Below, one piece after another: positions 36,351-39,184 of a stretch of DNA of 63,881 nt. Source of the stretch: Pseudomonadota bacterium (lineage in GTDB: Bacteria; Pseudomonadota; Gammaproteobacteria; Burkholderiales; Burkholderiaceae_C); assembly GCA_031119395.1 (NCBI GenBank), contig JAVHYA010000022.1, positions 1 to 63,881 on the forward strand. Reading direction: 5' to 3'. The translations under genes were made by a program, and so were the position numbers. The first letter of the stretch is position 1; each line of letters opens with the position of its first letter. The notes below the pieces were generated by a model. That model was given only the letters and a program-made list of their open reading frames with translations. It searched no databases and was not told where the DNA came from.

Positions 36351-37475
36351 TCAGCCGCGGCGCTGCTTGATCGCCTGCGACAGCGTCTCCAGCACCCCGA
36401 CGGAATCGTCCCAGCCCAGGCAGGCGTCGGTGATGCTCTGCCCGTAGGCCAGCGCGTCGATGCGGTCCTTGCCGGGCGTGAACTTCTGGGCGCCGGCCTG
36501 CAGGTGGCTCTCGACCATCACGCCGAAGACGCGGCGGCTGCCCCCGGCGATCTGGCCCGCGATGTCCTTGGCGACCTCGATCTGCCTCTGGTGCTGCTTG
36601 CTGCTGTTGGCATGGCTGCAGTCGATCATCAGCGTGGGCGGCAGCTTGGCGGCCTCCAGGTCGGCGCAGGCCGCGGCGACGCTGGCCGCGTCGTAGTTCG
36701 GCGCCTTGCCGCCGCGCAGGATCACGTGGCAGTCCTTGTTGCCCTTGGTCTGCACGATGGCGACCTGGCCGTTCTTGTGCACCGACAGGAAGTGGTGGCC
36801 GCGCGCCGCCGCTTGGATGGCATCGGTGGCGATGCGGATGTTGCCGTCGGTCCCGTTCTTGAAGCCGATGGGCGCGGACAGGCCCGAGGCCAGCTCGCGG
36901 TGCACCTGGCTCTCCGTCGTGCGCGCGCCGATGGCGCCCCAGGCGATCAGGTCGCCGATGTACTGCGGCGAGATCACGTCCAGGAACTCGCTGCCCGCCG
37001 GCAGGCCCAGGCGGTTGATGTCGATGAGCAGCTGGCGCGCGATGCGCAGGCCCTCGTCGATGCGGTAGCTCTCGTCCAGGTAGGGGTCGTTGATCAGGCC
37101 CTTCCAGCCGACCGTCGTGCGCGGTTTCTCGAAATACACGCGCATCACGATCTCCAGCGTGTCGGCGTACTTCTCGCGCTCGGCCTTCAGGCGCCGCGCG
37201 TACTCCAGCGCCGCGGCCGGGTCGTGGATGGAGCACGGCCCCATCACCACCAGCAGCCGGTCGTCCTTGCCCGCCATGATGTTGTGGATGGCATGGCGGG
37301 TCTGGCCGATCAGCCGTTCCACCGGCGTGCCGCCGATGGGGAAGAAGCGGATGAGGTGTTCGGGCGGAGGAAGCACGTTGATGTCCTTGATGCGCTGGTC
37401 GTCGGTCTGGCTGGTTTTCTCGACGGGTTGCGCGTACCAGGATTCGCTGGTGCCGGGGGTGGCTTTGGGACTCAT
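36351..37475 (-). CDS. aroG: 3-deoxy-7-phosphoheptulonate (DAHP) synthase, AroG type
   Basis: A 374-residue class I-alpha DAHP synthase, the entry step of the shikimate pathway (phosphoenolpyruvate plus erythrose 4-phosphate). Motifs: VVMGPCSIHDPAAALEYA, MRVYFEKPRTTVGWKG, SPQYIGDLIAWGAIGARTTESQVHRELASGLSAPIGFKNGTDG (read here in parts), and DCSHANSSK with a metal His. The start at 37475 was chosen because the longer frame reads through a terminator-like hairpin. The 5' leader holds an aromatic-rich peptide and a hairpin set typical of transcription attenuation. aroE at 44177 serves the same pathway. Confidence 0.95.
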   Translation of the reverse strand: MSPKATPGTSESWYAQPVEKTSQTDDQRIKDINVLPPPEHLIRFFPIGGTPVERLIGQTRHAIHNIMAGKDDRLLVVMGPCSIHDPAAALEYARRLKAEREKYADTLEIVMRVYFEKPRTTVGWKGLINDPYLDESYRIDEGLRIARQLLIDINRLGLPAGSEFLDVISPQYIGDLIAWGAIGARTTESQVHRELASGLSAPIGFKNGTDGNIRIATDAIQAAARGHHFLSVHKNGQVAIVQTKGNKDCHVILRGGKAPNYDAASVAAACADLEAAKLPPTLMIDCSHANSSKQHQRQIEVAKDIAGQIAGGSRRVFGVMVESHLQAGAQKFTPGKDRIDALAYGQSITDACLGWDDSVGVLETLSQAIKQRRG

Positions 37476-37523
37476 GCTCGTTCTTCCTCGGGTTGCTGTG
37501 ATGGGTGTGTTTTCGTGGCGGCC

Positions 37524-37558
37524 AAGAAAAAACCGCCGGGGCTTTCGCACCGGCGGTT
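37524..37558 (-). terminator. attenuator terminator in the aroG leader
   Basis: On the minus strand AACCGCCGG (37558-37550) pairs with CCGGCGGTT (37539-37531), with extra GC pairs in the loop, followed by a T-run. It lies between the leader-peptide gene and aroG, 49 bases before the aroG start codon, so it would stop transcription before aroG. Confidence 0.8.
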
Positions 37559-37610
37559 CTCGAGGGGTTCGGCTTGTCTGCTGTCTACGCGCGCGCCACT
37601 CGTCCGCCGG
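37531..37610 (-). promoter_or_regulatory. antiterminator pairing region of the aroG leader
   Basis: On the minus strand CCGGCGG-A-CGAG (37610-37599) inside the leader-peptide gene can pair with CTCG-AGAA-CCGCCGG (37564-37550 region), giving 11 base pairs with a small internal loop. This uses the 5' arm of the terminator, so the two structures exclude each other. Confidence 0.65.
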
Positions 37611-37659
37611 AGTCCGGGAACCAAAAGTAGGCAAAGTAGAAAGCGCGCGAGGCAGGCAT
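37585..37659 (-). CDS. aromatic-rich leader peptide of the aroG attenuator
   Basis: A 24-codon frame ending in TAG. Codons 7-14 (37641-37618) read FYFAYFWF: four Phe, two Tyr and one Trp within eight codons, a density rarely seen by chance. The next codons contain CCGGCGG (minus strand, 37610-37604), complementary to the 5' arm of the downstream terminator. There is no Shine-Dalgarno sequence; a TAGAGT -10-like element ends eight bases before the ATG, so the transcript may be leaderless. This follows the layout of known amino-acid leader peptides such as PheL and TrpL. Confidence 0.75.
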   Translation of the reverse strand: MPASRAFYFAYFWFPDSGGRVARA

Positions 37660-37723
37660 GGGGGCAGACTCTAGCACAGGGTCTTCGAAGCGCATGTCGC
37701 CAATTCGCATCAGGCGTCGCGGC

Positions 37724-39184
37724 TCAGGCCGTGCCGCCGACCGTCAGGCCGTCGATGCGCAGCGTGGGCTGGCCCACGCCCACGGGCACGCTCTGGCCTT
37801 CCTTGCCACAGGTGCCGACGCCCGAGTCCAGCGCCATGTCGTTGCCGATCATGGTCACGCGCGTGAGCGCATCCGGGCCGTTGCCCACGATGGTCGCGCC
37901 CTTCACGGGGTACTGGATCTTGCCGTTCTCGACCCAGTAGGCCTCGCTGGCCGAGAACACGAACTTGCCGCTGGTGATGTCGACCTGGCCACCGCCGAAG
38001 TTGGTGGCGTACAGGCCCTTCTTGATGCTGGCGACGATCTCGTCGGGATGCTTGTCGCCGCCGAGCATGTAGGTGTTGGTCATGCGCGGCATGGGCACGT
38101 GGGCGTAGCTCTCGCGGCGGCCGTTGCCGGTGGGCTTGACCTTCATGAGGCGCGCATTGAGCGCATCCTGGATGTAGCCCTTGAGGATGCCGTCCTCGAT
38201 CAGCACGTTGCGCTGGCTGGCGTTGCCCTCGTCGTCGACGTTGAGCGAACCGCGGCGGTCGGCGATGGTGCCGTCGTCCAGCACCGTGACGCCCTTGGCC
38301 GCCACGCGCTGGCCGATGCGGCCGCTGAAGGCCGAGGAGCCCTTGCGGTTGAAGTCGCCCTCCAGCCCGTGGCCGATGGCCTCGTGCAGGAGGATGCCGG
38401 GCCAGCCGGGGCCGAGCACGACGGTCATCTCGCCGGCGGGCGCGGGACGCGATTCGAGGTTGGTCAGCGCCGAGCTCACCGCGTGGTCGACGTACTCGGC
38501 GATCTGCTCGTCGCCGAAGTAGGCCAGGCCGAAGCGTCCGCCGCCGCCGCCGGAGCCGATCTCGCGGCGGCCGTTCTGCTCGGCGATCACCGTCACCGAC
38601 AGGCGCACCAGCGGGCGCACGTCGGCCGCCAGGGTGCCGTCGGCACGCGCCACCAGCACCACGTCGTACTCGCTGGCCAGGCCCGCCATGACCTGGGCGA
38701 TGCGCGGGTCGCGGCCGCGCGCGAGCTTTTCCACCTTCTCGAGCAGCTTCACCTTGGCGGTGCTGTCCAGCGTGGAGATGGGATCGATGCCCGGGTACAG
38801 CGAGCGGCTCGATGCTATCTTTTTGGTAGCGGCCTTCGCCCGCCCCGCGCCGCCTGCAGCCGAAATCGCCCGCACGGTGCGGGCGGCGTCGAGCAGCGAG
38901 GCCTCGGAGATGTCGTCCGAATAGGCGAAGGCCGTCTTCTCGCCGCTCACGGCCCGCACGCCGACGCCCTGGTCGATGCTGAAGCTGCCGGTCTTGACGA
39001 TGCCCTCTTCCAGGCTCCAGCCCTCGCTGCGGGTGTACTGGAAGTACAGGTCGGCGTCGTCGACCCGGTGCGCCTTGATCTCCGCCAGCGCCTTGGCGAG
39101 GTGCGTCTCGTCCAGGCCGAAGGGCGTGAGAAGCAGTTGCTGCGCCGTGGCCAGGCGCTCGATGGTGGGTTCGCGGGAGATCAT
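37724..39184 (-). CDS. tldD: metalloprotease TldD
   Basis: A 486-residue subunit of the TldD/TldE(PmbA) metalloprotease, which degrades unfolded peptides and matures certain peptide products. The zinc motif is HEAIGH (267-272) in LLHEAIGHGLEGDFNRKGSSAF. Other conserved blocks are GSGGGGGRFGLAYF, MPRMTNTYMLGGD, ATNFGGGQVDITSGKF and GNDMALDSGVGTCGK near the C-terminus with the third zinc ligand Cys. The pmbA/tldE partner is not in the window. A dispersed repeat copy lies in frame at residues about 106-124, a region replaced by a short loop in E. coli TldD as I recall. Confidence 0.95.
   Translation of the reverse strand: MISREPTIERLATAQQLLLTPFGLDETHLAKALAEIKAHRVDDADLYFQYTRSEGWSLEEGIVKTGSFSIDQGVGVRAVSGEKTAFAYSDDISEASLLDAARTVRAISAAGGAGRAKAATKKIASSRSLYPGIDPISTLDSTAKVKLLEKVEKLARGRDPRIAQVMAGLASEYDVVLVARADGTLAADVRPLVRLSVTVIAEQNGRREIGSGGGGGRFGLAYFGDEQIAEYVDHAVSSALTNLESRPAPAGEMTVVLGPGWPGILLHEAIGHGLEGDFNRKGSSAFSGRIGQRVAAKGVTVLDDGTIADRRGSLNVDDEGNASQRNVLIEDGILKGYIQDALNARLMKVKPTGNGRRESYAHVPMPRMTNTYMLGGDKHPDEIVASIKKGLYATNFGGGQVDITSGKFVFSASEAYWVENGKIQYPVKGATIVGNGPDALTRVTMIGNDMALDSGVGTCGKEGQSVPVGVGQPTLRIDGLTVGGTA
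38813..38868 (+). repeat. dispersed GCTAT-type repeat inside tldD
   Basis: TGCTATCTTTTTGGTAGC hairpin, CGCCCGCCCCGCGCC block, GCAGCCGAAAT end. It is antisense to tldD and encodes residues about 106-124 (an Ala/Gly/Lys-rich stretch). Confidence 0.7.

Follow-up and report, generated by a model that had tools for sequence, protein, structure and literature searches.

Does the short reading frame, dense in aromatic codons, that lies ahead of the DAHP synthase gene aroG in a member of Burkholderiaceae_C (order Burkholderiales, GTDB) form part of a switch controlling that gene, and how far does such a switch extend among relatives? The DNA analyzed here, called the window, is a stretch of 63,881 nucleotides of contig JAVHYA010000022.1 in assembly GCA_031119395.1, and an earlier note, made from its letters alone, had proposed a ribosome-mediated attenuator. 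We consider it highly probable that a ribosome-mediated, trp-type transcription attenuator controls aroG and senses Phe, Tyr and, in this family, Trp. Since the arrangement recurs in many relatives, it very probably switches aroG on when these amino acids are scarce.

The aroG locus

In the window, aroG (36351..37475, minus strand) encodes a class I DAHP synthase of 374 amino acids, matching TIGR00034 (5.7e-162, above its cut-off) and PF00793 (4e-95), and is preceded by the Shine-Dalgarno-like sequence GAGGAAG (37483..37489, minus strand). Upstream and codirectional is tldD (37724..39184, minus strand), of the TldD/PmbA type (PF19289, PF19290, and PF01523). The leader open reading frame (ORF) and the putative switch occupy the minus-strand gap between the two genes, with 65 nt from the end of tldD to the leader ATG. 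The leader ORF (37585..37659, minus strand; ATG at 37659, TAG at 37585) has 24 sense codons and encodes MPASRAFYFAYFWFPDSGGRVARA. Its candidate regulatory codons, Phe-Tyr-Phe-Ala-Tyr-Phe-Trp-Phe (FYFAYFWF), span 37618..37641 on the same strand, and both frame and run are as the earlier note had read them. At an E threshold of 1e-60, the genome contains one AroG-type DAHP synthase, and no class II DAHP synthase was found in it. The closest named relative is Xenophilus aerolatus (Comamonadaceae), with an AroG that is 97% identical. Elsewhere in the window, a tRNA gene at 1331-1404 on the plus strand is the sole Rfam match at gathering score.

Predicted aromatic leader peptides across the family

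A pattern search found the exact octapeptide FYFAYFWF in 22 of 399 family genomes, and at all 22 sites the DNA continues into an apparent aroG start, as judged by eye. For a motif-independent sample, AroG was searched in 180 family genomes and matched in 178, and the upstream DNA of 120 AroG loci from about 118 genera was taken among the matches listed, which stop short of the most distant AroG, giving 121 loci with the window. An aromatic-rich leader precedes aroG in all 121 of these loci from the AroG matches listed, 116 recognized by script and five by eye (three not orientable and two misassigned by the script). The conservation of the run in relatives, which the earlier note had named as a check, is thus borne out. 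When the ten consecutive codons richest in aromatics are taken upstream of aroG, they include five or more aromatic codons in 117 of the 118 scripted family loci (in two of the 117, L121 and L134, the script chose another frame), compared with 58 of 1180 dinucleotide shuffles and four of 118 reverse strands under the same criterion.

Phe, Tyr, and Trp are all present in 112 of the 121 family leaders, Phe and Tyr in seven, and Phe and Trp in two. The claim that a single peptide senses all three aromatic amino acids agrees with most of the family but loses ground beyond it, where the three occur together in only 25 of 58 leaders, and one of these 25 is probably a false match. A by-eye comparison saw no link between Trp-less leaders and the number of DAHP synthases.

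In the 106 leaders that contain FW[FISH], Trp is invariant by construction, followed by F in 99 and S in 90. The Phe codon before Trp is TTT in 99 of the 106, and the one after Trp is TTC in 91. Over all positions, leader Phe codons are mostly TTT (316 TTT, 199 TTC), a choice that is position-specific; in five coding sequences of the window, Phe is encoded 77 times by TTC and never by TTT.

The strong conservation of FWF in the family speaks for another way of working the same RNA switch, namely arrest inside the exit tunnel of the ribosome, brought about by the aromatic peptide itself in concert with a small molecule, for example a free aromatic amino acid. We consider such nascent-peptide arrest quite unlikely, because the run varies and yet stays aromatic (FYFAYFWF, FYFYFWF, YFYFYGF, FFFFFYFSY), ten family leaders are without the FW motif, and the kept sequence may partly reflect pairing of the RNA. 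A trp-type attenuator, in which the codons themselves are read, remains the preferred explanation.

Terminator and antiterminator

Between leader and aroG, an intrinsic terminator was placed by script in all 116 family loci tried. In the window, where all elements of the switch lie on the minus strand, the 5' arm of this terminator is segment 3, AACCGCCGG (37550..37558), its 3' arm is segment 4, CCGGCGGTT (37531..37539), and a T tract is found at 37524..37532. The hairpin from 37558 to 37531 has a predicted stability of -21.8 kcal/mol (z -5.1) that none of 200 shuffles equals, in keeping with the strong rho-independent terminator that the earlier note had placed before aroG. A simple minus-strand pattern scan with loops of 3 to 8 did not report it, probably because its loop is 10.

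Segment 3 also serves as the 3' half of a predicted antiterminator. The 5' half has as its core segment 2, CCGGCGG (37604..37610), which is complementary at 7/7 positions to CCGCCGG at 37556-37550, the complementarity to the terminator 5' arm that the earlier note had described. In the fold, a lower antiterminator helix pairs CGAG (37599..37602) with CTCG (37561..37564), which makes the antiterminator longer than the earlier note had it. Folded without the last arm, the antiterminator reaches -24.8 kcal/mol (z -2.06), and 3 of 200 shuffles do as well. Segment 1 (37614..37621), which overlaps the Trp and last Phe codons, may be the 5' half of a further hairpin with segment 2; in the window, this 1:2 hairpin comes to -9.7 kcal/mol (z -1.17), with 26 of 200 shuffles as good.

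Conservation and covariation of the proposed RNA switch

All segments were obtained from 116 family loci, and 110 were kept; L085, L088, L094, L099, L113, and L129 were left out because their best segment 2 match fell elsewhere. Over the seven pairs between segments 2 and 3, 93.2% of cells in these 110 loci are Watson-Crick, compared with at most 91.6% in 2000 deals of segment 2 among species. At position 3, nine family loci have T for C in segment 3, and eight of the nine carry the matching A in segment 2. Outside the family, 19 of 53 loci show a joint change of all three segments at position 5 (G/C/C to A/T/T). The pairing is thus kept with compensatory changes, the other result by which the earlier note had asked to be judged, although these covariation counts are of species and not of independent events. 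One locus, L136, forms a 13-pair antiterminator (G-T allowed) despite a quite different sequence. Segment 2 is read in differing frames from one species to another (PGG, PAV, PAD), so what is kept there is the RNA and not the peptide.

The set from outside the family started from 63 loci, of which 58 were parsed (L273, L282, L301, L304, and L305 yielded none), and L274, L276, L285, and L259 were dropped for a misplaced segment. L306, a likely false match that is not before AroG, sat in this set for the first pairing, folding, 1:2, lower-helix, and Phe/Tyr/Trp tests, and L154 was left out of the first pairing, folding, 1:2, and lower-helix tests. Rerunning the pairing test without L306 and with L154 left its outcome unchanged.

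The lower antiterminator helix is supported in the family, where the linker beats its shuffles (z < -1 in 57 of 110 loci and > 1 in one) and the pairing reaches 9.13, against at most 9.05 in 200 deals. Its support is confined to the family, the value outside being 8.37 and within the deals (up to 9.22). The 1:2 hairpin, which in most of the family pairs UUCUC with GAGAG, has z < -1 against shuffles in 64 of 110 family loci; its covariation there is 9.83, against a dealt mean of 9.98, with none beyond the control. If real, this hairpin would explain why Phe is TTC after Trp but TTT before it.

A long conserved leader that ends in a terminator would also suit a ligand-binding riboswitch, the short frame within it being fortuitous. 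This we find very improbable, given that the aromatic codons are kept in frame, that no conserved fold other than the switch helices was seen, and that the region has no Rfam match at gathering score, its five matches being at chance level (E 0.3 to 7).

Ribosome position and the proposed switch

In 97 of the 103 family loci counted, a distance of 12-16 nt separates the first base of the Trp codon from segment 2 downstream. A ribosome covers about 12 nt past the first A-site base, so a stall at Trp or earlier would leave segment 2 free. We used a folding model in which bases covered by the ribosome are blocked and the antiterminator is scored before segment 4 exists. In this model, the antiterminator is predicted in 108 of 110 family loci with the ribosome stalled in the middle of the run and in 109 with the stall at Trp or the last codon, compared with 49 without a ribosome and, again, 49 with the ribosome at the stop codon. 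The corresponding values for the window are 1.000, 1.000, 0.000, and 0.000. Family-wide, a ribosome at the stop codon lowers the antiterminator no further than leaving the RNA empty, a result that does not favor a clean switch. Outside the family, the antiterminator is predicted in 50 of 53 loci (one of them a likely false match) for a mid-run stall, 35 for a stall at the last codon, 26 without a ribosome, and 18 when the ribosome sits at the stop codon. A second result that speaks against a clean switch is that the complete RNA at equilibrium prefers the terminator whichever bases are blocked (in 99 to 110 of the 110 family loci); thus, the switch would have to be kinetic.

We infer that the leader is translated, that ribosomes stall on it, where its transcript begins, and in which direction aroG responds, and the proposed sequence of events is as follows. 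Transcription would begin at the leader AUG or no more than a few bases from it, producing a leaderless end on which a ribosome would load. If charged tRNA-Phe, -Tyr, or -Trp were scarce, the ribosome would stall within FYFAYFWF, its front edge ending at or before segment 2, so that segment 2 could capture segment 3; with this antiterminator formed, RNA polymerase would read into aroG. If all three were plentiful, the ribosome would reach the stop codon and hinder segment 2, leaving segment 3 to pair with segment 4, and the resulting terminator would stop transcription before aroG. Such an attenuator could act as the general control of entry into the shikimate pathway that the earlier note envisaged.

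A probable leaderless start in the family

An extended -10-like promoter element, TGCTAGAGT (37668..37676, minus strand), ends 8 nt before the leader ATG and includes TAGAGT (37673-37668), the hexamer noted before at this very distance. Among 114 family loci (L109 and L128 not included in the promoter and Shine-Dalgarno counts), TGnTAnnnT occurs upstream of the leader in 108 and a -10-like box ends 6-8 nt 5' of the leader ATG in 105, with no conserved -35 element. A transcription start at or next to the ATG would place the -10 box at that spacing. A Shine-Dalgarno-like four-mer is present at the leader in one of the 114 loci and at aroG in 97. These patterns support a leader transcript that, in the family, would be leaderless and start at or near the leader ATG, and the earlier guess to this effect, made from the missing Shine-Dalgarno sequence of one locus, gains support from the kept spacing and the family-wide lack. 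Outside the family, the -10-like box was often not found, so support for the leaderless start extends no further than the family. That the terminator merely ends tldD and the leader frame is accidental is scarcely credible, for although tldD is codirectional and ends only 65 nt before the leader, a promoter-like element is kept between the two, the aromatic run is conserved, and the antiterminator covaries.

Relation to known attenuators

The mechanism as such is known. In Escherichia coli and its relatives, the leaders of the trp, pheA, his, and ilv attenuators carry a Shine-Dalgarno sequence and begin with an ordinary 5' end, the ilvGMEDA attenuator also reads several amino acids, and aroG of E. 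coli is under TyrR control. The aroR attenuator of aroF in Corynebacterium glutamicum, whose transcript is leaderless, was reportedly described by Neshat et al. in 2014.

Closest in function, likened here by description and not by sequence, is this aroR, likewise a short aromatic leader before a DAHP synthase gene. It has a Phe-Tyr-Phe leader at which stalling under Phe limitation raises aroF transcription, with Tyr availability described as having no effect (PMC11802643), and a leader peptide has been detected at aroF (PMC4046766). Unlike the present element, it belongs to another phylum and has no Trp in the motif as described. The predicted upstream ORF uORFC-13-1, described from only Acholeplasma and environmental sequences, similarly places Phe codon(s) together with a terminator ahead of aroF, a DAHP synthase gene (PMC8632094); its description includes a ribosome-binding site, whereas the family leaders, as counted above, almost always lack one. 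In Sinorhizobium meliloti, the first bases of the attenuated trpL RNA are the ATG of its leader ORF, and both RNA and peptide also act in trans (PMC7298713); by that account, trpL differs in sensing Trp and controlling trpE(G). E. coli-type attenuators (trp, pheA, his, and ilv) are described as using the same ribosome-driven choice between antiterminator and terminator for other target genes (PMC1183508). Putative attenuators have also been described before tyrA operons, with the Bordetella one before another gene cluster (PMC1173090).

No model in Rfam 15, Pfam, or NCBIfam matches the leader or attenuator, and no report of the element in Betaproteobacteria was recognized in the literature searched, which excludes most subscription journals. 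We therefore take it as a new and widespread element that uses a known mechanism. The features of its own would be Trp sensing in the family and, likely, the leaderless start. Well over a hundred species seem to control DAHP synthase by an RNA switch that is unnamed in the libraries searched, and from it one can predict how these bacteria set their synthesis of aromatic amino acids. The element would offer a single short RNA that naturally senses three amino acids, and it would be an easy test case for a ribosome that starts on a leaderless end to drive attenuation.

Distribution in Burkholderiales and beyond

A covariance model built from 55 family leaders matches 101 of 300 genomes of the order at E 0.01, 77 of them at full length. 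Of these full-length matches, 75 lie directly before AroG, in 14 family groups (30 of 30 in one check and 45 of 47 by position comparison); the two that do not are weak (E 4e-4 and 9.5e-3). The order as used here covers most Betaproteobacteria. In 271 further genomes of the class outside the window's own family, full-length matches occur in two, from one family group. The window's genome has six matches at E up to 10, of which only the one at aroG is full length; the other five are partial, at E 0.02 or worse, and a second element in this genome was therefore rejected.

Because the filters of the large scans are stricter and drop weak matches, a genome with no match does not necessarily lack the element. 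Twenty of the 199 model-negative order genomes were tried; five had no AroG match at E 1e-60, and the leader is missing at the best AroG locus of all 15 others. In L321, which belongs to these 15, a TTG-start frame contains six aromatic codons in ten; this frame spans the terminator of the preceding gene and was judged unrelated. The leader is present in 73 of the 79 named loci whose upstream DNA was long enough (70 by script and three by eye), and the six without it are four from Polynucleobacter and two from Cupriavidus (L247 and L252). Universal presence before aroG is ruled out by these six together with the 15 loci without a leader peptide.

A broader reading is that the attenuator is the main, old genetic control of shikimate entry across most of the order, a leaderless three-input gate fired by any one shortage, whose terminated RNA of about 130 nt is a small leaderless mRNA that would also work in trans, either by itself or through its peptide, in the manner of Sinorhizobium trpL. 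We regard this combination as possible but doubtful.

The four Polynucleobacter loci (L242 and L245 judged by reading, L244 and L246 by the script alone) have no part of the attenuator in the gap that separates aroG from tldD. The aroG ATG of L242 and L245 follows TAAAAT at a distance of 6 nt, and in these two aroG itself may thus be leaderless. Two further loci titled Polynucleobacter, L228 and L230, retain the leader. In another genome (G642, contig 1, 3050118-3052290), tandem AroG-type genes stand behind one attenuator, with no aromatic leader seen before the second. At class level, L258 and L259 (family group f63) have the same leader type before aroG, the AroG frame being recognized by eye; their leaders, outside the order's sample, perhaps reflect transfer or deep ancestry. 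Finally, two records, L201 (titled Solimonas) and L254 (Terrimicrobiaceae), carry a Comamonadaceae-like AroG and leader, with AroG identities of 84% and 77%, respectively, and are perhaps mislabeled or mixed bins.
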